Part shown: one piece after another, positions 17,062 through 50,300 of the stretch
Position numbering within the stretch: position 1 is the first letter of the stretch
Layout: every line of letters starts with the position of its first letter
Source of the DNA: Pontederia crassipes
Lineage: Eukaryota > Streptophyta > Magnoliopsida > Commelinales > Pontederiaceae
Assembly: GCA_030549335.1 (NCBI GenBank)
Contig: CM060193.1
Span: forward strand, 48,007,891-48,071,890
Length of the DNA: 64,000 bases
Direction: 5' to 3'
Made by a program: the position numbers and the translations under genes
The notes under the pieces: model-generated
The model's input: the letters and a program-made list of their open reading frames with translations, nothing else
What the model was told of the DNA's origin: nothing
Databases searched by the model: none

Positions 17062-18751
17062 GGGTTTTTTCCGTTGACCTATGAACTATGAACTTTTTTC
17101 GCGTCTACCTACAACTTTCGAATATTGCGCTGATATCTCCTAAACTATGCTCCTTTTTTTTTTACTTAAGTTCATATGTCAACCTCGGTTAATTTAAACT
17201 ATGTTCATTTTTTTACTTAAGTCTGTCAACATCGGTTAACTTTTTCATTAATTTTTATTTTTTAATTTATAAAATAATCAAATTATCCTTCTCTCGTGTC
17301 AATTAATATTGTAAAATATAAAATAATATATTATAAAAATAAAACAATGAGACTGCTGAGGGGGCCCCTCCCTCGCGACCTGTGCTTGGAGTATGCCCTT
17401 GGGGCTCCCTCGCCGACGAAGCAAAGCGGCGCGGCAGGCTCGACGAGGCTACCATCGGATTCCTCCTCTAACGACGCCTGCGACATCAAGGGCCAGATCG
17501 ACGCCGACGGGCGCACGAAGATCGCGACATCAATTGCGCGCGGATCGCCGGGGAGGACGAGGTCTGGGGCAGTTCGGGGGCACGCCAATGTTCGGGGTCA
17601 GTTCGGGGTCGGCGTATCTGCATTCTAGGGGCATCGTCCACTGCGACGTCGTCCTGATTGGCGCCGACGGGTGCGCGAAGGTCATGGACTTCGGCAGCGC
17701 GCGGGTCGTCGATGAGGATGAGGAGAGGGGCAGTTCGGGGCACGCCAATGTTTGTGGCGCCGGAGGTGGCCCGGGGAGAGGAGCAAGGGTGCCCTCTGAC
17801 ATCTCGGTGCTGGGGTGCATGAAGATCGAGATGGCCACCAGGCAGGCGCCATGGCTGCAGGCCATCGACCCCGTCGCCACCCTTCACCAGATCGCCTTTC
17901 TCGATGGATGTGTTCCTGAGCAGGTGCTTGTGCAGCTGGATTGGGGGGTCGACGCCCCTCCCCTCTGCGATCTCGTCGCCGGTGTCCTTTTCCTGTTCCT
18001 GGAGTACGCCCTCGGGGGCTCCCTTGTCGACAAGGCGAAGCAGTGCGGAGGGAGGCTCGATGAGGCCGCCGTTGGATTCTTCTTCTACGATGTCGTCAGG
18101 GGATTGGCGTATCTGCATTCTAGGGGTGTCATCCACTGCGACGTCGTCCTGATCGACGCCGATGGGCGCGCGAAGGTCGTGGAGGCAGTGCGCGGGTCAC
18201 CGAGGAGGACGAGGAGAGGGGCAGTTCGGGGCACGCCAATGTTCGTGGCGCTGGAGGTGGCCCGGGGAGAGGAGCAAGGGCGCCCTCCGACATCTCGGTG
18301 CTGGGGTGCACGAAGATCGAGATGGCCACCGGGCGGGCGCCATGGCTGTAGGCCGCCGACCCCGTCGCCACCCTTCACTGGATCGCCTTCTCAGCGGATG
18401 TGTCGAATTTCTCAGCTGGTTCTCCGACGGAGGCAAGACATCGTGAGCAGGTGCCCGTGCAGCCCCCTGCGATCTCGTCGCCGGAGAGGGGGGAGTCTCA
18501 CATGTCGGCAAAACATATTTTTTTTTGATAATATATTATTTTATATTTTACAATATTAGATGATAGAGGAAAGGGTAGTTTAGTTATTTCATAAATAAAA
18601 AAAATAAAAATTAACCAAAAAATTATTAGAAATTGACGGATGAATTTAAGTGAAAAAAGAAGCATAATTTAGGGGATGTCAGTAGAATATTCGAAAGTCG
18701 CGAATAAATGCGAAAAAAGTTCATAATTCAGAGGAGGTCAGTAGAAAAATA
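17062..18751. mobile_element. Pack-MULE-like element carrying kinase gene fragments
   Basis: The element has long inverted termini: 17062-17340 matches the reverse complement of about 18517-18751, sharing TATGAACTTTTTTCGC, ACTTTCGAATATT and AATATTGTAAAATATAAAAT. The arms are AT-rich; the core at 17345-18510 is very GC-rich and holds protein-kinase fragments. Long TIRs flanking captured host exons without a transposase define Pack-MULEs in plants. I do not see a clean 9-bp target duplication, so a Mutator origin is inferred from TIR length and architecture. Confidence 0.7.
17378..18559 (+). pseudogene. Captured MAPKKK17/18-type kinase fragments, tandemly rearranged
   Basis: The GC-rich core encodes pieces of an NPK1/MAPKKK17/18-type Ser/Thr kinase: LEYALGGSL with GGRLDEAAV (N-lobe to hinge), AYLHSRGIVHCDV (catalytic-loop region), MDFGSARVV (DFG motif), GTPMFV and EVARGEEQG (activation segment) and MATRQAPW. 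The set occurs twice, at about 17378-17985 and 17986-18510. A 388-codon frame (17393-18559) runs through both. The P-loop, the VAIK lysine and the lysine and asparagine after HCD are missing, so it cannot be an active kinase. Small internal deletions and frame changes separate the copies. A transcript or small RNAs against the parent gene are possible, which is inference. Confidence 0.75.
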
Positions 18752-21184: not shown

Positions 21185-21860
21185 CTACCGCATCCGGTTG
21201 TGATGCTTCATGATGAAGTCATCGTAAAGGCGGTTCGACTCGTCGCGGATCGCCAACGACGAAGGCGCACGCCCTCCGAGCACAGGCAGAGGCCACGCCG
21301 CCATTGCTTCCTGTTGCCTCTGCCCACGCGGCGGTGTCACCTGTCGCGACGTCGTCGCCGTCTGGTCTGACGCGACCTCTTCTCCATGATGGTCTTCCAC
21401 ATGACCTCCATCGGAGGGTTCTCCTCCTCCTCCTCCTCGTCCTCATCCTCCTCCTCCATCTCCATCCCCTTTCGAAGTGTCTTCCAACGCCGGCATTTCC
21501 TCTTCGTCCACCTTCACGTCGTTCTCCGAGACCGCGAACTTCATGCCGAGCTCCGAACAGACAACAGACTTCTCCGACGCCCGCGGAAGCTCGACGTGCT
21601 GTGGCGCCAGCAGCGTTATAGGGACAACGTCGGGTACCACAGGCAAGAAAGGGGACGACGATGCAGGGATTTTTATTCCAGGTATCCGGTGATGGCTTCC
21701 TCAAGAGGGGTTCAGTCCGCGCCAAGATGCCCCCGGAGAGGACCGCCAGGAAGAAAAAAGGGGCTTTTGTGACCAGAGTCGACACAAAATCGACGGTCCT
21801 CTGATCAGTTCGTCGCAGAATCGAATCCATACCCCTCTGCTGCATCTTCGTGTTCGTCAC
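21185..21860 (-). CDS. DUF761-like plant protein, first exon, frame disrupted
   Basis: The minus strand carries DESNRLYDDFIMKHHNRMR at about 21186-21240, matching the short C-terminal DUF761 motif of plant proteins also containing DUF4408 (pattern DELN+.. ++FI.K....++LQ). It stops at a strong donor (ATGCG|GTAGGT at 21186-21181), so the motif would continue in another exon. Upstream residues include MEVMWKTIMEKR and an acidic Glu/Asp run, in a different frame from the flanking segments, although those flanks (21646-21446 and 21400-21185) share one frame. A hydrophobic stretch FFFLAVLSGGIL lies near the N-terminus. Either a small indel pair or a pseudogene explains this. It is divergently oriented to CPR5-like copy A. 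Function is unknown. Confidence 0.45.
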
Positions 21861-21889
21861 AAAATCGAATCAGTTCATCACAAAATCGC

Positions 21890-21960
21890 AATCTTCGTGC
21901 CAAACTCCGAACCGGCAACAGACTTCTCCGACGCTGGCGGGAGTTCGACAGCATGTCGAC
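21890..21960 (+). repeat. Partial duplicate of a DUF761-like coding segment
   Basis: About 68 bp containing ACAGACTTCTCCGACGC repeat 21536-21603 with some changes. The copy lies just upstream of the CPR5-like copy A promoter, showing local duplication at this boundary. Confidence 0.65.
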
Positions 21961-22033: not shown

Positions 22034-22040
22034 TATAAAA
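22034..22040 (+). promoter_or_regulatory. TATA box of CPR5-like copy A
   Basis: TATAAAA occurs here, and the aligned position of copy B has TATAAAT at 25912-25918. The flanking sequence is also alignable (GACGAATTCGA upstream of both), so the duplicated unit included the promoter. Confidence 0.5.
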
Positions 22041-22061
22041 AGACAAGGTTAGAGAGAATAA

Positions 22062-24598
22062 TTCTACCAGAGGTACCACCGCATCGCAGATTTTAATTTT
22101 GGCTTCTCGTATTCTCCTGCCAAGCACCGCAATTACCAATGGCACGTCGGCGTTCAATGGGCAAAGGGCGCCTCTAAACACAAAGTCGACATTCTTTCTT
22201 CTTCCTCCGTCGCTCGTGATTCTTCCGACTGCCGCTCACAGACATTAGATTTAGACACGGATACGGCTTGCAGTGCGGTCTCCGTTATCTCAAGTAATTA
22301 TGATGATCTCAGCGACCTCGCACAATCTCTCGGCGTGTCTTTTGCTTCGGTTATGTCTCAGGTTTTTATTTTTCCTTTTTCTCCGCTTTGATTATTTATG
22401 AGATATTGATTCACTGGTTTGTTTAAAACTTGCTTTTCTTTTTGCCTTTAATTAATTATTATTATATCGTGAGATAGATAATATCATAATACTAGTCATA
22501 ATTAATTGCTAATTATATCTATCATAATTATTTAATTCGTGTTAAAAGTGCTTAATATTTAGATGAAAGGACTCGAGATCTAATTACAAGACATATTAAT
22601 ATGTATAACTAAAATTTAATTCTAAATTCCTCGTGTAACTAAATAATTTTATTATTATTATTATGAGACGCTACTTATCACTTTGTCAGTCAGCGATAGT
22701 ATTACAATTTTAACAATCTTTAATATGATCACATAGTAAAAATAAACAAAAGCATTATACATTGACATGCTATTAATTGTTAGACATCATGTAAAAAGAG
22801 TTGGATTCTAATAGAAGACAAGTGGTGACTCATAAATTTAAATGTTTATTTTTGGGTCGGAGAAAAAGTTATACTGCTAAAATTTCTACAAATCTATTTA
22901 GACATAGTTTTTTTCTTTCTTCTTTCTCTCTTTTTGTTGGGACATTGCTTTCTTAGGTAACACAGTTTCTCATTTTGATACTAGAATTATTGATTTCAGG
23001 TTTTGAACGTGAATATTAACTGTCAAGGTCGGATGTCCACATATTACTTTTATTATGTAAGTTACTTTTATTCAACTACATATGTCTCATTTATCATATG
23101 AAAAATGGACATGTATTTTGATTCATATACATGTTTGTGATTGGTTGCAGATGTGCACTTCGGCAATAAAAGAGTATGTTACTAATGTAAGTTCATATTG
23201 AACAAGTCATTTCAACTTATTTGTTGTTTGATTGTCGAATTATTACACATTGTTTTCATCTTATTTGTCTTCAATTATGTTTGTATTCATACATATGCAC
23301 GGGGAGAAGTTTGATTCATTTATTAAATACTTTGAGAAGTCATTTGAAAGTACTTTTAAGACCCCCCAAAAGATTGCTTCTACTTCATCTACATTCAATC
23401 ACTCAGACGAAAGTGCAATTACTAATCATCCAACTAGTGGTGCACCAACACCGAACACCCTTGATCTTGTCAGAATGGATGAAGATGTTCGAGAGAGTGC
23501 TGCAATAAGTGTGATAAACAATGAAATTATACTTCATGATCAAATGAACTATCAATTAGCTCATGTTTCTCATGGCCTTTCTCAATTCGGCCAACTATTT
23601 CTAAATACATATGAGAGGTTTGTTGATGAGCAAACTTTGTCCAATGACTTGAAGGCATATGAAATTAGACTTGACGCAGAAAAATTGAAGTTAAAGCAAT
23701 CACAAGTTGATATTGAATCCAATGCAAATGTGCTTACGGAGACAAAAATAAAATCATGCATGGCAAAGACATTACTTGAAGAAAATAAATTTAGCAATAA
23801 AATACAACACATGAGATATGCAGAACTCCTGAAAATATTTAGTGATATTCTATCCGCTGGATTGATTATCATGTGTGTCACACTTGCATACGGAGCATAT
23901 ACCTTCTCGTACCAACGTGTCATAGATTTGACATCCATCTGCACCCCTCTTGAGGTATGTCTATAATCTCAATCTCTACATTCCAACTTTTTTTACGTGA
24001 GCAAGTTGTTTGCGTGGATATATTTTGGATGATGGATAAGTTGTTTGCTGGATTGATAATATTTTTCTTTCTATTTTAGGTGAAAAAGTATTGGTGGATT
24101 CCAAACAAAATTACATCTTTGGCCTCTAATTTGAAGAGCCTAGTATGCCATGCCATCGCCATACCCCGCATGTCCTTTGGTGTTTTGATGGTTTTAGTTG
24201 TTACTTACTTGCTTAATAGGGTGGTATCAAAATCATCTTTGTCTATAACATTTGTTGTTGTGCTGGGACTTATTTGTGGTTTTGTTGGAAAATGGTGTAT
24301 TAATACATTTGGAGGGAAAGGAGACAAGTGGCTTGTTTTCTGGCAAGTTAAATGCATGATCCACTTATTTCTCACTCTCTTTCCGGAAGCTTACTATCGA
24401 ATCTTATATGGTCATGGGTCTCGAGAAACAACAAAAGTGAAGTTGCCTTATATGTTCATCCGATATATATTCTACGTCATGCTATTGATTTATCCTGCAT
24501 GGATGGGCTTGTCTTCATTTGGTACATTTGAAGTTTGGAGAGAATACTTTTCAAAGGAGTTCCCTGGTTCGAGAGGAGCAAGATATCATGGAGTCTGA
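22062..24598 (+). CDS. CPR5: CPR5-like protein, copy A (nearly complete)
   Basis: Five exons fit CPR5, a plant nuclear-pore membrane protein that restrains effector-triggered immunity, cell death and senescence. Exon 1 (open from 22062, ends 22361) gives AQSLGVSFASVMSQ; exon 2 is 23000-23056; exon 3, 23151-23186, gives MCTSAIKEYVTN; exon 4 runs about 23295-23954 with GEKFDSFIKYFEKSF, a long helical region and a first membrane span SAGLIIMCVTLAYGAY; exon 5, 24080-24598, carries about four more spans (MSFGVLMVLVV, GLICGFVGKWCI). Five C-terminal spans match Arabidopsis CPR5 (564 residues); here about 520 are visible. Two oddities: no in-frame ATG opens exon 1 (copy B has ATG where A has ATT), and the expected exon 4 acceptor reads AT rather than AG. 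A nearby AG at 23304-23305 would keep the frame, losing four residues. Confidence 0.85.
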
Positions 24599-24900
24599 GC
24601 TATGTTGGCGACTTAGCTTCTTTTGTCAATATCAGTCATTTATGACTTCTTTTCCTAATATAAATCAAACAATGTCAAAGCATTAACATTTCTCTTTTTC
24701 ACTCCATATATATATCCTATTTTTTACTTTTCGAGAATGAATGATTTGGAATTGTTTGTTAAAAGATAGTTTGGAATATATATATCATATTATGTTGCAA
24801 TTAAAATTAAGGATCATATTATGTATGAAGTCTATCCTAATAATGGAGACAAGTTAAAACTATGGGGAAGAAAAAGAACATATTAGCACCACTTCCTCTA
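24599..24900 (+). other. 3' flank of CPR5-like copy A, duplicated behind copy C
   Basis: The downstream sequence, including AATCAAACAATGTCAAAGCA and GAGAATGAATGATTTGGAAT, aligns with 33720-34060 behind copy C. The duplicated unit therefore included at least 200-300 bp of 3' flank. Confidence 0.7.
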
Positions 24901-24903
24901 TAA

Positions 24904-25450
24904 TTGACTGAATTTCGATGTCTTACCAATCCTCAAGGTCCTCATGAAGATATTCCAACAGTTGAGAGGCTTGCTCTTGTTAATTTAGTGTACACATTGA
25001 GATGTTGGGGAGCTTTTAAGCTACATTCTATGCTGGATTATTTTGTAATCTCTTCCCTGCACTACACTAGAATTAAGTTTGATGATTCTAGATTTATACA
25101 TTTTGAAAGGTTCTAATGTCTATTTGAAGCAAAATAATGTGATGAAGATTATAATAATGTGAAATCTCATATATTAGTAATGAATCCTTTACGCTCATAT
25201 TCACTTCTTATTGAGGAATTAAGAAAGAGCAAAAACAAACAAGAGGAATTCAAAATGAGGTAGATTAAGTAGCATTATTAGCTCCAAAATATTCATCTAG
25301 TAAAGGAAAATAGAAACGGATTATGGTACTAGTTATGAGTATTGCAAGAAACAAGGACATAAGAGGACTGGATGCTACAAATTCATTGGTTATTCATCAA
25401 AGTATAAATTATGAAATGAAAATCAGTCTGCCGTGAATTCTGAAAATTTT
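24904..25450 (+). mobile_element. Ty1/copia gag fossil
   Basis: Translated pieces resemble the gag/UBN2 region and the CX2CX4HX4C zinc knuckle of copia elements (YEYCKKQGHKRTGCYK near 25335-25385). The fragment lies between CPR5-like copies A and B. It is short and broken, with several breaks. Confidence 0.55.
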
Positions 25451-25860
25451 GTTCTGAAATCTTTCTTTCATATTGGACCAAACAATGTGGGCATATCATT
25501 TTGAGAGTAAGACACACAAATAAACTAGAAACTCATATCCTCAGCAGACCCATATCCGGATAGCCAACCATGCCAGAACACAATAATAGTAATAAAACGG
25601 ACTCAGACCAAAAAGAACAAAGATTACATAAGACTTGACAACTAAAAAAAAGACAACAAGTCTCTTGGGTGGGTGTTGCCAGTGAGGTTGGTGTTCTTCC
25701 CGATTGATAGCAGAAGTTGTTAAGGGGAGATGCGCCGCCAGAAGAGAGGAGGAGAAAATTTTGCTCCAATGGACAATCTGATTGTCCCGATAGCTTCTTT
25801 TTCCTCTCATCATGGAGGAAGAGGAGGGAGACGAATTCGACTAAGATTAGGGAACCGTTG
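25451..25860. other. Spacer between CPR5-like copies
   Basis: No gene is recognised. The last 30 bp (GACGAATTCGACTAAGATTAGG) begin the similarity to the 5' flank of copy A. Two overlapping minus-strand frames (25533-25813) show no conserved motif. Confidence 0.4.
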
Positions 25861-26661
25861 ACTCTTCGTTGTGGAGCTTCTAGTGGGCAATGAATCTGAG
25901 GTTCAGATCCTTATAAATAGAGAAGCTCAAGAGAAAAATCTTACACAACTTCACGATTCTGTGATTCCCGTCCACCCTAATATGCTCGAAGCACTGCAAG
26001 AAAGAAAGAAGAGTCATGCATCTCCATCTTTCCACTCGGCGTTGGGGTCATCGACCATCACTGGGCGTAGCAGTCGCTGCCTCTCAACACAAAGATTCTC
26101 TTTCTTCCTCCTCCGTTGCATCTGCTCCTTATGGGGCCCCACAAATACCAGAGATAAACGTGCACGCTACAAATACGGCGTGGAGTGGGGCCTCTGGCAC
26201 CTCAAGTCGCTGCAACGACGATAACATCCACAACTTGGCATACTCTCTGGGTGTGTCTCTCACTTCGATTATCTCCCAGGTTTTTGTTTTTTGTTTCTCA
26301 TTTGATTAATATTATTCACCCACTTAAAACTTAATTTTATTTTGGTCTTTAACTAATTAATTACTATTATATCTTTAGATTGATAATATCATAATACTAC
26401 TCGTAGTAACTTTATTTCTAACTAAATCTATTTTAAGGAAGTTATGATGTAAGTTGTATTCCTATTAAAATTGCTTAATAATTAAAAGAAAATAGTCTAC
26501 GCATGAATGAAGAAAACATGAGATCTCTAAAATACAAAAGCATAACAAAGTTTGGATTAAATCTTATTATGTAAACCTTTTGCAATGGAATCTACACTTG
26601 AAATAAGACTCGAAAGTTGAAATCTAATTACAACATATTATATATATGAGAATTCAATTCT

Positions 26662-26662
26662 A

Positions 26663-26716
<54 letters not shown>

Positions 26717-26724
26717 AAAAGGTA
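26662..26724 (+). repeat. (TTA)n microsatellite
   Basis: About 20 near-perfect TTA units lie in intron 1 of CPR5-like copy B. Copy A has only a few units in the corresponding place (about 22640-22660). Confidence 0.9.
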
Positions 26725-27128
26725 CTTGATTGTCACTTTGTCAGACAGATTTATGTAATAGTATTACAATTTTAACAATTTCTAAAATAATCCTATAATC
26801 AAATATAAACAAATTTACATGTTATTAATTGTTAAGCAACATGTAAAAAGAGTTGATTAATAATAAAAAAAATTATTATCAGGTATTTGATTCTCACTTC
26901 GTCAGATTTATGTAATAGTATTACAATTTTAACAATTTATAGAATGATCCGATAATAATACAAACAAATTTACATGTTATTAATTGTTAAGCATAATGTA
27001 AAAAGAGTTTATTCTAATAATAGTCTCTTGACCACTAATAAATTTAGGTTTTATTTTTTAACGAAAAAACACTAGAAGAAAATTGAACATGTCTTCTTTA
27101 GTATTTGAAATAATATTACGAATACTTG

Positions 27129-27202
<74 letters not shown>
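27129..27202 (+). repeat. (AT)n(AG)n compound microsatellite
   Basis: An AT run passes directly into an AG run in intron 1 of CPR5-like copy B. Confidence 0.9.
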
Positions 27203-27208
<6 letters not shown>

Positions 27209-27455
27209 ATTCCATATATATAATGTTTGCATTTGGATAGAAAGCAAATAATAAAAGATTAGTACAGTCATGTATAAAAATTGACTAAACTTTCTTTAAA
27301 TCTCTTTACCACATAAATTTTTTTTCTGTTTTTTCTCTTTTTCAAGGACATTTCTTTCTTAGGTAGAATGTAATTTCTCATTTTGATGTTAAAAATTGTT
27401 CATTGAATTCAGGTTTTTGCATATGTACATTTTTGACAATAAAAGAGGATGTTAC

Positions 27456-28672
27456 CAAGATTGTTAAAAAGTAGTTTTAATACTTAAAAACTTTCGAATT
27501 TACGTTTCTAGGGTTAAAAAACGAGTTGAGTCGGGTTAAAAATGTAAAATGGATTAAAATCGGATATACTTACGTTTTAATGCGGTAAAAACGTATGAGT
27601 ACGTTCATATGCACGATTAAGTAGCGAATACTTTTTGTTTGGTAGGCTTGGTGACCCTATTTCAAGAGGTTGCAGGTTCGAATCTCCTTACTACCACAAC
27701 TTTTTGACAACATTTGTTAGTCAACTATGCATAATTTCTATATTTATTATTTTTCCCTTTATTTTATAATCACACTAAATTTATTTATAATAAGTTAAAA
27801 TTAAGATAGAAAATCGGATAAAAATATATAATTTATTATAAATAATTCCAATGAATTATGTTTATTTTTTTATTCATTGGACTATAATACTTAAATAAAA
27901 ATTAATTCATACAATGAAAAATTATATAGTGATTATAATAATAATGACATGAAAATAATACTATTTTAGACAAAAAAAATTTAGACTATATTAATTTTCC
28001 TATACATCTGTTTGTATATAATTTTATTGATTTCATTATACCACAACTTTTTTACAACATTTGTTAGTCAACTATGCATACTTTCTATATATATTATTTT
28101 TTCCCTTTATTTTATAATCGCACTAAATTTATTTATAATAAATTAAAATTAAGATAGAAAATCAGATAAAAATATATAATTTATTATAAATAATTCCAAT
28201 GAATTATGTTTATTTTTTTATTCATTGGACCATAATACTTAAATAAAAATTAATTCATACAATGAAAAATTATATTATAATAATAATGACAAGAAAATAA
28301 TACTATTTTAGACAAAAAAAATTTAGACTATTAATTTTCCTATACATCTGTTTGTATATAATTTTATTAATTTCATTATATGGATTTATGATACTTCAAT
28401 TGAATATATATATATATATATATATATTTATCTTGATAATTTTAAAATAGATTGTTCTACAAGTTTATTATTTGTAAAATTTTATTCTCTAATTATTCAT
28501 GTTATTTTAAATTCTTATGTATTTATTAAAATATTTTTATGTGGTTTAAAAAATAAAAAAAATATTAAATTAATATTATATCTAAATACTACGTATTTAC
28601 GTATCGAATTTACGATACGAGTTCACCCCCCCTAAACCGAACTTAGGTAGAAACTCGAACTTGACAACCTTG
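27456..28672. mobile_element. Non-autonomous hAT-type element inserted in CPR5 copy B exon 3
   Basis: The ends are CAAGATTGTTAA and, inverted, CAAGGTTGTCAA (12 bp, 2 mismatches). The flanks are GATGTTAC (27448-27455) and GACGTTAC (28673-28680), an 8-bp target duplication with one change, as expected for hAT. Copy A supplies the empty site (TATGTTAC within exon 3). The 1217-bp element has no transposase. Internally, 27693-28039 and 28040-28380 are a tandem duplication with a 347-bp period. A short tRNA-like segment with a B-box-like GGTTCGAATC lies at 27640-27696. Confidence 0.85.
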
Positions 28673-29781
28673 GACGTTACTATTATAAGTTCATATCTAA
28701 TATATGTTTTCAATCTCTTTTGTTATTGGATTGTCAAAATACCACACACAATTTTCATCTTATTTGTCTTCAACTTCGTTTGCATTCCAAAAGATGCATG
28801 GGGAGAAGTTTGATTCTTTTATTAAATACTTTGAGAATTCATTCACAAGTACTTTTAAAACCCTTCAAAAGATTAATGATAATGCTTCTATTAAATAGTT
28901 GGGAATACTACTTGCAACGAATCTATGTTCAATAATTATGGAAAAAGAACTATTACTTACATCCGATCATTCAGTTGAAAGTCAAATTATCGACTACCAT
29001 TTAATCTTTCAAGTGGTGTGCCAACCTCGAACACTCTTGACCTTATCAAAATCAATGAAAATGATTGAGAGAGTGCTACAATAAATGTGGTAGACAATCA
29101 AATTATCATGCACTATCAACTAGGTCATGTCTCTCATGGCCTTTCTGAATTCGGTCAATTATTTTTTAAATACATATGAAAGGTCCATTAATAGGCAAAC
29201 TTTGTCCAATGACTTGAAAGCATATGAGATCTTGGCGTAGAAAATTTGAAGTTAAAGTAATCACAACTCAATATTGAATACAATGCCAATATGCTTTGCC
29301 GGACAAAGATAAAAATGGGCATAAGGCATTATTTGAAGAAGAGAAACTAAGCAAGAAAATGCAACACATGAGACATGCAGAGCTCTTGAAAATATTTAGT
29401 GATATTCTATCCGCTGGATTGATCATCATGTGTGTCACGCTTGCATACGGAGCACATACTCTCTCATACCAACTATCATAGATTTGACATCCATTTGCAT
29501 GCCTCTTGATATGTCTACGATCACAATCTCTACATTCCACCTTTTTTTTACGTGAGATGTTCTTCCCATGGATATATTTTGCATGATGGATGATTTTTTT
29601 CCTTTCTATTTTAGGTGAAAAAGTCTTGGTGGATTCCAAATAAAATTGCATCTTTCACCTCTAATTTGAAGAACCTCGGATGCCATGACATGACAATACC
29701 CTGCATGTCATTTGGTGTTCTCATGGTTTTAGTTGTTTACTTGCTTAACAGGGCGGTATCAAGTGCAGCTTCATCTATAAC

Positions 29782-32135
29782 TGTAACGACCCTAATTTTT
29801 GAGAGTTAGAAAAATAATATTTTATTATTTATTTTGAGAAAAATGACCATTAATATTATTATAATAAATAATTCCGAAAATAAAGGAAAATAGGGGAGGA
29901 GTTTAATTAAGGATAAAAATGTATTACGGGATATTTATTTAAATTCGGAATTATTTAATTATTAAAATAAATCAAAATTGTTAAAAGGGATTAATTAAAA
30001 GATTAAATTTGATTAGGATTGTAAGTTATAGATGAATTGGAGATAAAGATTTAAGAGCCCTATAAATAAATTCTTAGAGTCGATCGTCAAAAGAGTTTTC
30101 TTTTCTATGGGTTCTTGGTGTCCGACGGCAAAGGCATGGCAAAGCATGATTCAACGTCGAACGGCTACGAGGTATGTAGGGGGGATTCTGCTTGATTGTT
30201 ATTGTGTCGTGATGTTTTACGACGTAATTTAGTTTTAAATTGGATTTGTTACGGCCGTAATTTTCTGGTCGTAATTATTTGTGGACACGTGATGTTCTCG
30301 GCCGAAACGAGGGAAGAGTTTTACGGGTAAATAGAGAAAGAGCGTTTACGCCCGTAAAAGAAAAAAAAATAATGTTACGGCCGAAGAGTTAGGTTTTCGG
30401 CCGTAATGAAATAGAAAAGGTAGAGAGAAAAGGGGAGATGGATTGGCCATAATGGAATAGAGAGAGAAAAAAAAATGAAAAAAAAAGTGTTTACGGCCGA
30501 AGAGTTACGATTTTTCGGCCGTAACGAAATAGAGATGTGGAGAGAGAAAGGGGTAAAAAAAAAGAAGTATGAAGTTTACGGCCGTAACGGATAGGGGGTA
30601 ATAGTTGATGGTCGTAATAGAATAGGGTGTAAAAGTTGATGGCCGTAACAGAAAGGGGGTAAAAGTTGATGGCCGTAATAGAATAGGGTGTAAAATTTGA
30701 TGGCCGTAACGGAAAGGGGGTAAAAATTGATGGCCATAATAAAATATGGTGTAAAATTTGATGGCCGTAACGGAAAGGGGGTAAAAGTTGATGGCCGTAA
30801 CGGAAAGAGGGTAAAAGTTTATGGCAGTAATAAAATATGGGGTAAAACTTTGGAGAGAGAATTTATAGCCGTAAAAATCAGAGAAGATGGAGAGAGAAAA
30901 AAATGATGTTACGGCTGTAATGAACAGAGAGTACCACCGAGAGTTATTATTTATTTTTGAATAAATTTTAATTACTGATTATTATTGTTGTTATTAATTA
31001 ATTTGATGTATTAATGATATTGTTGGTGATTGATTTGTTTATACTATGATGAACTTTGATTTTGATTGTATTGTTGACCTACTTAGTTTTGAGTTCAGAA
31101 TTTATCTAATCAAATTGATAATTTATTTAAAGATAGACATTTTAGGTAAACAAGATAAAAGCCGAAAGCTGCTGGGCCAATGTTCACTGATTGTCACTAA
31201 GCCGGGACCAATTGAATTGAATTGAATTGAATTGAATGGGGCAGATAGTGTAAAAACTATGGCTGTCCTGTGTATGGCTACTCGTCCCCCATCATACACG
31301 AATCCATTGAATCGTATCGAGCTTGCCGTGGCACTGATCTCCCACTGGCCTGCATGAAAGTGGCATGGTGTCCCTTAATTGACTGAGCGCTCCTCATTGA
31401 ATTGGATAACTCCGAACATTGAAAATCGAATCGAATTGAATTGAATTGAAATTGGAATTGAAGTAAATGGAATTAAATCATGGTCATTTAGATATATTGG
31501 CATGGAGTTGGCAATTATTATTGCCCTATTGAATTGAATCGTTATTGACCAATGACCATTGATTATTGAATTGGAAATTGTTAATTGAATATTGATTTAT
31601 TAATCAGGCAATTGATAATTATTAATTGGAACAATTGTTATTGATTTACATTGGTCTGTTGACCATAGTCTGATATATTGTTCATATCGATAAATTGTTA
31701 ATTGATTATTGTATTGACTGCTCAATCGACTCATTATTGATTTTATCTTATTTTCGATTGAGCATATTGATTGTCTTTTAGACCCTACATACTGAGTATT
31801 TTTATACTCATGGATATTTCCCTGTACCTGGATTCGTGCAGGTGAGAGTACTTCGATAGAGGATGATCCTGCAGGTGGCTATGCTCAGTGATAGACATAT
31901 GTTGCACATGTTCTAGATTGAGTTGTCTAGTTGTTATTATTTTCGCATTTATTAGAATTGTGAACTTATTAATATTTTAATTATTTTGAATATAATGGAT
32001 TATTAGTTGTTATTATTGAAAAAAGTCTTCCGCATTTATTGTTTATATTCTGCAAAAATGTTTTATAAAAAATTGAGTAGCGCCTCTGGGACGACTCTGA
32101 GCACGTGAAATTCACGTGGGTCTCGGGTCGTTACA
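29782..32135 (+). mobile_element. Ty3/gypsy-type solo LTR in CPR5 copy B exon 5
   Basis: The 2354-bp segment begins TGTAACGACC and ends GGTCGTTACA, a perfect 10-bp inverted terminus with TG...CA ends. It is flanked by the 5-bp duplication ATAAC at 29777-29781 and 32136-32140. Copies A and C give the uninterrupted site. No internal coding domain is seen, so it is a solo LTR left by recombination. It contains a GGCCGTAA-rich minisatellite (30576-30850), an AATTG-type repeat and a TATA-like leader near 31790. A perfect target duplication suggests a moderately recent insertion; no age can be computed from one LTR. Confidence 0.9.
30576..30850 (+). repeat. Minisatellite inside the solo LTR
   Basis: About nine imperfect units of some 27-32 bp contain GTAAAAGTTGATGGCCGTAA. 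The self-complementary core TTACGGCCGTAA and relatives also occur around it, at 30240-30930. Confidence 0.85.
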
Positions 32136-32404
32136 ATAACATTTATTGTTATTATGTTGGGAGTTATTTGTGGTTTTATTGGAAAGTTGTGTATTAATGT
32201 ATTGGGAGGAATGAAGGTCGGTGGCTTATTTTCTGGGAAGTTAAATGCATGATTCACTTATTTGCTACTCTTTTTATGGTCGTGGGTCTCGAGAAACAAT
32301 AAGATTTAAGCTATTTTACATGATCAATCGATATGTATTCTACGTCTTGCTGCTGATTTATTCTACATGGATGAACTTGTCATCATTTGCTCCATTTGAT
32401 GTTT

Positions 32405-33706
32405 GGGGAAAAGTTTGATTCTATTATTAAATACTTTGAGAAGTCATTCGCGAGTACTTTTAAAATCCTCCAAAAGATTAATGATAATGCTTCTATTAAA
32501 TAATTGGGAATACTCCTTGCAATGAATCTATGTTCAATAATTATGGAAACATAACTATTACTTGTAGTTCATCTACATTTGATCATTCAGTTGAAAGCCA
32601 AGTTATCGACTACAATTCATCTGCATTCAATCTTTCAAGTGCCAACCTCGAGCACCCTTGACCTTGTCAAAATCAATGAAAATGCCCGAGAGTGCTACAA
32701 TAAATGCGATAGACATTCAAATTATCCATCATGATCAAATGCACTATCAATTAACTCATGTTTCTCGTGGTCTTTCTGAATTCGGTCAATTATTTTTAAA
32801 TACATATGAAAGGTCCGTTAATGGGCAAACTTTGTCCAATGACGTGAAAGCATATGAGATCAAACTTGGTGTAGAAAAATTGAAGTTAAAGCAATCACAA
32901 CTCAATATTGAAAACAATGCAAATACGCTTTACAGGACAAAGATAAAAATGGGCATGCCAAAGGCATTACTTGAAGAAGTGAAACTTAGCAAGAAACTGC
33001 AACATATGAGACATGCAGAGCTCCTGAAAATATTTAGTAATATTCTATCCATTGGATTGATCATTATGTGTGTCACGCTTGCATATGGAGCGTATACCCT
33101 CTCAAGTCAACGTATCACAAATTTGACATCCTTCTGCATGCCTTTGAGGTATGTCTACAATCTCAATCTCTACATTCCACCTTTTTCTTACGTGAGCATA
33201 TTCTTCCCATGGATATATTTTGGATTCGATGATTTTTTTTCTTTCTATTTTAGGTGAAAAAGTCTCGATGGATTCCAAATAAGATTGCATTTTTAACCTC
33301 TAATTTGAAGAAATGGGATGTCATGCCATGACCTTTGGTGTTCTCATGATTTTAGTTGTTGTTTACATGCTTAACATGGTGGTATCAAGTGCAGCTTCGT
33401 CTATAGCATTTATTGTTATTATGTTGGGAGTTATTTGTGATTTTATTAGAAAGTTGTGTATTAATATATTGGGAGGAATGGATGCCGGTGGCTTATTTTT
33501 TGAGAAGTTAAATGCATGATTCATTTATTTGCTACTCTCTTTATGGCTATGGGTCTCGAGAAATGACAAGAGTCAAGCTATTTTACATTATCAATCCATA
33601 TGTATTCTACGCCTTGTTGTTAATTTATTCTGCATGGATGGACTTATCATCATTTGCTCCGTTTGATGCTTGGAGAGAATATTTTTCAAAGAAGTTCCCT
33701 AGCTAG
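32405..33706 (+). pseudogene. CPR5: CPR5-like copy C (exons 4 and 5 only)
   Basis: The copy begins inside exon 4 (GEKFDSIIKYFEKSF), directly after the end of copy B exon 5, with no exons 1-3 or promoter. A 199-codon frame at 32658-33257 preserves most of exon 4 (LSEFGQLFLNTYERS, HAELLKIFSNIL, IGLIIMCVTLAYGAY). The donor at 33149 and the acceptor ending at 33253 are intact. Exon 5 (33254-33706) is split by a frame change between GGLFFEKLNA and the last spans, and ends at a TAG near the position of the copy A stop. Exon 4 has stops near its start, where B and C share about 100 bp of sequence absent from A. B and C are thus closer to each other than to A. Confidence 0.85.
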
Positions 33707-48460: not shown

Positions 48461-50300
48461 GATATCATCATTGAGTCCGCACAATCAAATCTAAACCTAC
48501 ACAAGGAACTAACAATGCTTCCAATGAAATAGAACTTGTTAAGAGGAAGCCTAGTAAGAACAAATATGAAGCTTGGAATTATTTTGAAAAAAAAATTACT
48601 TTGGATCATGAAGCTAGAGCAAAGTGCAAATATTGTAAAAGTGACTTTGCTACGGACCCTAATAAGTATGGAATTACTAGTTTATTTAAACACTTAAAAA
48701 GATGGAAGAAGTTCCCACATAAAAGTGAAGTGAAGGGTCAAAAAACGTTGACACAAAGCTTACAAGGAGTATCCACTTCAACAAAACCATTAGTTCCTCA
48801 TTCATACAATTATGAAGATTGTAGAAGAGCCTTGGTTGAGTTTGTTATATGTGGTGAGCAAGCTTTCAGAGTTGTAGAAGGTGATGAATTTCGTAAGTAT
48901 TCAAAATGCTTGGAACCTAGATTCATGAATTCTTTCAAGATTTACTATTGCTAGAAATTGCTATCACTTATATATCGATGGAATGGATAAACTCAAAGCA
49001 CTTTTTAAGAAGTCTTCTTCACGTATTTGCCTTACTACTGATACTTGGACATCTTGTTAAAAAATATGTTATTTGTGTCTCACAGCACACTTTATTGATG
49101 AAGTTTGGGTGCTACATAAAAGGATTCTTAATTTTTGCCCTATTGAAGGATATAAGGGAGAGGATATTGCTAAAGTTGTTGAAAAGTGTTTACTAGCATG
49201 GGAGATTGAAAAGGTATTCACCATTACTATTGATAATGCTACGGCCAATGATAAAGTTATTGGTCATTTGAAATAAAGATTGCATGGTTAGAAAGGTTTG
49301 ATTTTTAATGGTAATTTTATTCACATCAGATGTTGTTCACATACACTAAATCTTGTGGTCAAAGATGGGTTACATGATATGAAATCAACAATTGTGTCAA
49401 TTCGTGAAGTTGTTCATTACGTGGGATCATCTCTGGCACGTTTTGAAAAATTCAAAAGATTTATACATGAGGAGAAAATCACTAGCCAATATAGTGTTAT
49501 TATGGATGTGCCAACTCGATGAAATTCGACCTATTTATTGTTGGAAAAAGCTGAACAATTTCAAAACGTATTTGAAAGGTTGGATGATGAAGATGGGGGA
49601 TACAAATTACATTTCAAAGAAAATGATTGTGTGCCACCTACAACTGAAGATTGGGAAAATACTCAAAATTTTGTGATGTTTCTTAAATTTTTTTATGATG
49701 CAACATGCAGTTTATCTTACTCATCATTTGTGACATCTTCTGCTTGCTTTCATGAGATTGTATTTGTTCAATCTCAAACTACAAAATGGAGTGATAGTCA
49801 TGATGTGCACTTGCAAAAAATGGCTTGTGACATGAGGTTTAAATATGATAAGTATTGGGGAAAACCTAAAAATATTAATCCATTGATACTTACTGTTGTT
49901 GTATTAGATCCTAGATATAAACTTGGATATGTTGAATGGAATTATACATATCTTTATGACCCAAACACGGCTACTTGGATAGTTATAAAAATTCAAGATA
50001 GTATGCATCGTATGTATGAATTTTATGCACAGGAACTCAATCAAGGCTCAAATTCTCAAGTAGAGAATACAAGTTCTATAACTGGGGTTGAAAAGGTAAA
50101 TGTTGATGAGAAGACAACTAGGATTCATCGGTGGAGTAGACTACCGAAGGAAAAAAGAAGCACTGATAATAAATATGAAATTGAGAGATATTTGATGGAA
50201 CCTTGTGAGGGTGAAAGGGATTTTAATATCATAAATTGGTGGAAGGCCAATTAAATAAAGTATATTATTCTTTCTCTAATGGCACGTGATGTTTTGACCA
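48430..50300 (+). pseudogene. hAT transposase, N-terminal and catalytic part, with frame breaks
   Basis: A BED-type zinc finger appears as AKCKYCKSDFATD with a later HLKRWKKFPHK (48600-48725). Catalytic-domain text follows: FTITIDNATANDKVIGHLK (about 49217-49275), HIRCCSHTLNLVVKDGL (49321-49373) and a long open segment of 238 codons (49538-50254) ending EIERYLMEP and INWWKAN. The order and motifs match DAYSLEEPER/Ac-type hAT transposases. Stops and frame shifts near 48952, 49053, 49275 and 49520 make it inactive as read. The C-terminal dimerisation part continues beyond the CACTA insertion at 55101. Confidence 0.85.

Follow-up and report, generated by a model that had tools for sequence, protein, structure and literature searches.

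A probable decaying tandem cluster of CPR5-like paralogues in Pontederia crassipes

What becomes of extra copies of CPR5, a growth regulator that also restrains immunity? The question is raised by a 64 000-nucleotide stretch of the genome of Pontederia crassipes (contig CM060193.1 of assembly GCA_030549335.1, positions 48,007,891 to 48,071,890 of the forward strand), hereafter the window, in which CPR5-related exons, all in one orientation, span 22.1–33.7 kb. A preliminary description had seen here three copies, A, B and C, lying in direct orientation, one near-complete and two broken. We find that the locus is probably a decaying cluster of tandem CPR5 paralogues, ordinary in kind, and that the gene-length copies number two, A and B, 'C' being exons 4–5 only.

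Layout of the cluster and its family

The copies were compared by blastn of copy A (22062–24620) against the window (E⩽1e-3). Besides the self-match, 12 pieces were retrieved, confined to 26.08–27.46, 28.68–29.78 and 32.14–33.75 kb, with none elsewhere in the window. The two main pieces, in C and B, were 77.4% and 79.3% identical to A, respectively (both with an E value of 0.0), and the remaining pieces were 68–88% identical. The direct orientation described earlier was borne out, as all 12 pieces lie on the + strand, but three independent gene-length copies were ruled out, since C starts inside exon 5 of B, to which it is fused, and holds exons 4–5 only. Duplication of a single locus during assembly, which the preliminary description had flagged as the artefact to beware of, was rejected as well: because the copies differ at 10–18% of sites and carry private indels and private insertions with target duplications, it is very unlikely, its probability being close to nil. 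The features of the cluster are as follows.

22034..22042, + strand: TATA-box-like element of A, TATAAAAAG, located by alignment with the 5' flank of B; putative promoter element
22139..22361, + strand: exon 1 of A, ending CAG/GTTTTT
23000..23056, + strand: exon 2 of A, 57 nt, phase 0, with AG..GTAAGT borders
23151..23186, + strand: exon 3 of A, 36 nt, with AG..GTAAGT borders
23307..23954, + strand: exon 4 of A, 648 nt, start uncertain; encodes the heptad repeats and the first of the membrane spans
24080..24598, + strand: exon 5 of A, 519 nt, with four predicted membrane spans and the stop codon TGA
25912..25920, + strand: TATA-box-like element of B, TATAAATAG, located by alignment of the 5' flanks; putative promoter element
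26016..26279, + strand: exon 1 of B, with an in-frame ATG at 26016 and 88 open codons up to the donor
27456..28672, no strand assigned: 1.2-kb insertion with terminal inverted repeats (TIRs) in exon 3 of B, ends read by eye
28794..29510, + strand: relic of exon 4 of B, end approximate; TAG stop, private indels, donor GT lost
29615..32412, + strand: relic of exon 5 of B, interrupted by a long terminal repeat (LTR)-like insertion and truncated on the 3' side by the start of C
29782..32135, no strand assigned: LTR-like insertion in exon 5 of B, 2354 bp, with ends TGTAACGACCC...GGGTCGTTACA and a 5-bp target duplication
32405..33149, + strand: exon 4 of C, a partial duplicate of exon 4 of B, fused to exon 5 of B, end approximate
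33254..33706, + strand: relic of exon 5 of C, with 1-nt and 25-nt losses common to B

Membership of the cluster in the CPR5 family, as assigned in the preliminary description, is supported by the similarity of A to Arabidopsis CPR5 and by its five exons, five predicted membrane spans, heptads and the glycine at the G420 position. The protein query was an approximate sequence of Arabidopsis CPR5 (At5g64930), hereafter the reference protein, and matches in the window were retained at E⩽1 in tblastn. It matched copy A with E values of 4e-27 and 8e-25, C with 5e-22, 1e-8 and 1e-4, and fragments of B with 6e-7, 0.002 and 0.84; matches within the window were restricted to these copies, and three of three shuffled versions of the query found nothing there at the same threshold. 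Identity to the reference protein was 30.4% and 34.6% over the two main matches in A, the first of which extends into intron 4. Neither the frames of A in exons 4 and 5 nor the open frame of C matched any Pfam family at its cut-off, and the family call therefore rests on the reference protein together with published residue landmarks. The reference protein agreed with 9 of 12 published or derived residue labels (PMC11798864, PMC7322872), matching all four early labels and five of the eight later ones once shifted by +10. No solved structure matched exon 5 at E⩽1, and a search for exon-5 relatives among viral contigs gave two pattern matches, neither of them confirmed.

In cotton, CPR5 genes are reported to consist of five exons separated by four introns, if splice variants are left aside (PMC9213653), and from sequence alone A has the same arrangement, exon 1 being followed by exons of 57, 36, 648 and 519 nt with GT/AG borders, except that the AG of exon 4 sits 12 nt inside the position of that of B. 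Five C-terminal membrane spans in the 1+4 arrangement of the family are predicted in A, where Kyte–Doolittle hydropathy (19-residue windows above 1.3) gave 10 peak windows, which we interpret as a single span in exon 4 and a further four in exon 5. For the dimerisation domain, heptad positions have been published from Arabidopsis residue 284 to 326 (PMC11798864). At positions 284, 291, 298, 305, 312, 319 and 326, A has L, L, L, I, L, S and L, that is, six of seven apolar residues in an alignment read by eye, the placing of which is least sure at 298, 319 and 326, where the reference protein disagrees with the paper. The glycine of the FGVLM motif, at the position of Arabidopsis G420, is present in A, B and C. 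The N-terminal region of the family, basic with a nuclear localisation signal and an RRM-SR region behind a start codon, was not found, and inspection by eye of the exon-1 reading frame of A and B saw no counterpart of the basic block RVVHRLRNP..MARRS that the reference protein has. The out-of-frame first codons of A (MARRRSMGKG) resemble the MARRSVGE block of the reference protein, which lies later in that protein, and no counterpart of this stretch was seen in the reading frame of B.

Lesions and insertions

Copy A is near-complete, as it had been called, in its five exon-equivalents and five predicted spans, but not at its start or at the border of exon 4. Its ATG at 22139 opens 12 codons and then meets a stop, and the exon-1 frame that can be aligned with B, although open, is not the frame of this ATG and is devoid of any ATG before 22353. 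The TATA-like element lies 105 nt upstream of the ATG in A and 104 nt upstream in B. At the exon-4 acceptor B has AAAAG, whereas A has no AG at that place, its next AG lying 12 nt inside exon 4 with the frame preserved. Exons 2–5 of A form an open frame of 419 codons without a stop or a net frame shift. Upstream of A there is also a 63-bp direct repeat (21533–21595 and 21887–21949, 82.5% identity).

About 100 bp early in exon 4, present in B and C and absent from A, had been taken as extra sequence and as an argument that B and C arose from a later duplication. Exon 4 of A carries a net deletion of 77 nt relative to B and 93 nt relative to C, and the lost stretch starts at the place where KINDNASI in C is paired with LINESTAI in the reference protein. 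Because of this alignment the 'extra' stretch is ancestral sequence that A lost, and a derived insertion common to B and C was ruled out. That argument for a later B/C duplication accordingly falls, but B and C are still the closest pair by Kimura two-parameter distance (B–C 0.112, A–B 0.194, A–C 0.217).

The lesions common to B and C bear on how C came about. Both have a stop at one and the same exon-4 codon (TAG in B, TAA in C), and both have lost 1 nt near A 24308 and 25 nt at A 24382. The reference protein, like A, continues through the 25-nt stretch that they lack. Given the stop and the two losses in common, the best reading of C is that exons 4–5 were duplicated internally in an already broken B gene. 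At the junction, near 32405–32412, exon 5 of B ends at about 32412 and exon 4 of C begins at about 32405, and here the exon-5 text of C, GATGCTTGGAGAGAA, resembles the exon-4 text of B, GATGCATGGGGAGAA, over about 15 bp. Further in-register stops are private, two in B and two in C, and the 3' flank of C matches that of A in two pieces, up to 34075. Despite its broken exons, C retains an open frame of 220 codons (32595–33254, + strand) over the heptad domain and the first membrane span, probably by chance.

Copy B has lost exon 2 and has received two insertions. The TIRs of the insertion in exon 3 read CAAG[A/G]TTGT[T/C]A and are flanked by an 8-bp repeat, GA[T/C]GTTAC, with one mismatch, the length of which suggests a hAT-like element. 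Within it lie a direct repeat of ~360 bp (27682–28040 and 28030–28380, 94% alike) and, by eye, a B-box-like motif, GGTTCGAATC, at about 27675; ARAGORN found no tRNA in the window, the surroundings of this motif included. The LTR-like insertion is present in exon 5 of B and in neither A nor C. The sequence ATAAC stands on both sides of it and is single in A, and C has ATAGC at this place. With TG..CA ends and a 5-bp target duplication, as in a solo LTR, the element is read as a putative solo LTR, of which the window holds no second copy at E⩽1e-4. On its minus strand are two frames, 123 and 157 aa long from stop to stop, and it also contains a tandem repeat (30572–30850) with offsets of 122 and 183 bp, multiples of 61, rich in GGCCGTAA.

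The explanation that we favour would join these observations as follows. A divergent CPR5-like paralogue, comprising a 5' flank, five exons and a 3' flank, would have been tandemly duplicated to give A and the gene from which B and C descend. That second gene may have been disabled first, by the exon-4 stop and by the loss of 1 nt and of 25 nt from exon 5, and its exons 4–5 would then have been doubled, giving C, by unequal exchange at the ~15 bp over which the beginning of exon 4 resembles the end of exon 5. The same gene would also have gained the TIR element in exon 3 and lost exon 2, and the LTR element would have entered exon 5 of B after the doubling of exons 4–5. Copy A would have held exons 2–5 open for much of its history, and is presumably without function now, its B-type exon-4 acceptor lost and no usable N-terminus found. 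An intact CPR5 elsewhere in the genome would presumably perform the normal role.

Constraint and the status of copy A

The residues of A change no more slowly than those of the broken B/C pair, at a pace like that of a pseudogene. Coding sites at which B and C agree with each other but not with A, each reflecting a change on the branch of A or on the B/C stem, number 51, 34 and 47 at codon positions 1, 2 and 3, respectively, with no excess at third positions. The ratio of nonsynonymous to synonymous substitution rates (dN/dS, with bootstrap 95% intervals) was 0.53 (0.39–0.74) for A–B, 0.50 (0.37–0.70) for A–C and 0.49 (0.33–0.75) for B–C, and A is therefore under no tighter constraint than B and C, which are broken. 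Among 67 aligned residues at which B and C are alike and A is not, the residue of the reference protein equals that of B/C in 21, that of A in 10 and neither in 36. Relaxed constraint, one of the meanings suggested in the preliminary description, is supported, A having a codon-position pattern and a dN/dS like those of the broken pair, but a frame that was kept.

Several results nevertheless weigh against plain decay of A. Neutral simulations gave a median dN/dS of 0.70–0.73, with values ⩽0.5 in 1–5% of 300 runs per setting, so that the observed ratios lie near the low edge and some constraint may have acted; as the clearly broken pair B–C has the same ratio, this may simply be what neutral change yields with the actual mutation spectrum, and otherwise every branch would have been constrained somewhat. 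The 419-codon frame of A, free of stops and shifts, is also more than neutral decay predicts. At about 88 substitutions, two thirds of 132 as assumed from the 21:10 split of residues, the neutral probability was 0.06 (by simulation) of no stop and 0.0003 of no frame shift, and at 44 substitutions these values were 0.20 and 0.017; the frame-shift rate was taken from B/C, with 10 private frame-shifting indels, counted by eye, per 108 private substitutions. In exon 1, from ~22160 to 22361, the gaps between A and B are multiples of three in five of five cases in a longer alignment and in three of three in a shorter one, and in the shorter alignment, the first few columns of which are misaligned, the two differ at 23, 13 and 27 of 61 sites each at codon positions 1, 2 and 3. 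These are signs that exon 1 was still coding after the split of A and B. In our reading, A preserved its frame during much of its history while its residues were constrained weakly.

Could A still be doing something? The preliminary description had raised dosage change and decoys, and we found no positive evidence for either, although the decoy idea survives for A, whose heptads and spans lie in an open frame. It would have A expressed as an N-terminally shortened CPR5-like protein, 422 residues from the ATG at 22353 with the heptad repeat and five predicted membrane spans, which joins dimers of true CPR5 and lowers or retunes their activity. The frame of exons 2–5, open against neutral expectation, the retained TATA-like element, the six of seven apolar heptad positions (by eye) and the G420 glycine all agree with such a role, and in Arabidopsis the CPR5 heptad domain expressed alone disrupts CPR5 dimers and gives cpr5-like immunity (PMC11798864), while nucleotides of putative internal CPR5 start codons influence growth and resistance (PMC7322872). 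The ATG in question, however, is the first in the exon-1 frame, stands at the very end of exon 1 and lies behind the ATG that opens the 12-codon frame, and the residues of A drift as in the broken pair; we consider a natural decoy unlikely. A more specific form, in which A would compete at the nuclear pore and have been kept open for interference and not for the activity of CPR5 itself, is very doubtful, and on that reading A, with its dimerisation heptads and membrane anchors kept, would be an in-genome counterpart of the engineered heptad-domain decoy.

That A is the sole, functional CPR5 gene of this genome is highly improbable. Its membrane spans, most of its heptads and its exon order would fit, but its start is broken, the basic N-terminal block was not seen, and it has no excess of silent changes, even though mutation of CPR5 gives dwarfism and lesions in Arabidopsis (PMC11798864). 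Decay of tandem paralogues remains the probable account of the cluster as a whole.

Neighbouring sequence and comparison with known CPR5 systems

Near the CPR5 cluster, an open frame at 17360–18556 (+ strand) holds two partial protein-kinase stretches (Pfam Pkinase, E value 1.6e-18), both with a YLHSRG(I/V)(V/I)HCDV motif, and resembles a degenerate kinase gene with an internal duplication. At 48475–50251 (+ strand), two adjacent open frames match the BED zinc finger and the hAT RNase-H transposase (Pfam), marking a hAT transposon. With this transposase, its introns and CPR5 itself, the window has the look of plant DNA. An Rfam scan of the window at the gathering threshold found nothing.

A stepwise-decayed tandem paralogue shows that extra copies of a gene that holds immunity in check can arise. 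If A is expressed, it offers a test of whether shortened copies naturally brake CPR5 dimers; if it is not, the locus is a caution for gene-family surveys, which might score as many as three CPR5 genes where likely none works. Among the papers listed by a literature search, judged mostly by titles and the openings of abstracts, none was on a tandem or pseudogene CPR5 cluster. The low copy number assumed in the preliminary description agrees with one survey, which gives one or two genes per species: a single gene for Arabidopsis, grape, cacao and each of ten diploid cottons, but a pair for rice and for tetraploid cottons, with splice variants filtered out (PMC9213653).

Like Arabidopsis CPR5, the cluster has five exons, the heptad domain, 1+4 spans, the FGVLM glycine at the G420 position and the blocks GEKFD..F...FE.SF..T and SNDLKA.EI.L..KLKLK; unlike it, A and B lack a visible basic N-terminal block, the start of A is broken and B/C is disabled. 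Tandem pseudogene clusters in plants are marked by unequal exchange, transposon insertions and early lesions in common, and what sets the present one apart from such clusters in general is that the gene is CPR5, which encodes a nucleoporin and has been reported in single or low copy number. The two rice CPR5 genes are not known to form a tandem cluster, whereas the copies here are tandem and decayed, and intact rice CPR5-1 affects virus susceptibility. The likeness to rice CPR5-1/CPR5-2 (RYMV2 locus) lies in a second homologue of which natural null alleles are tolerated: African rice plants with null or truncated CPR5-1 alleles are virus-resistant and show no obvious harm (PMC7236528).

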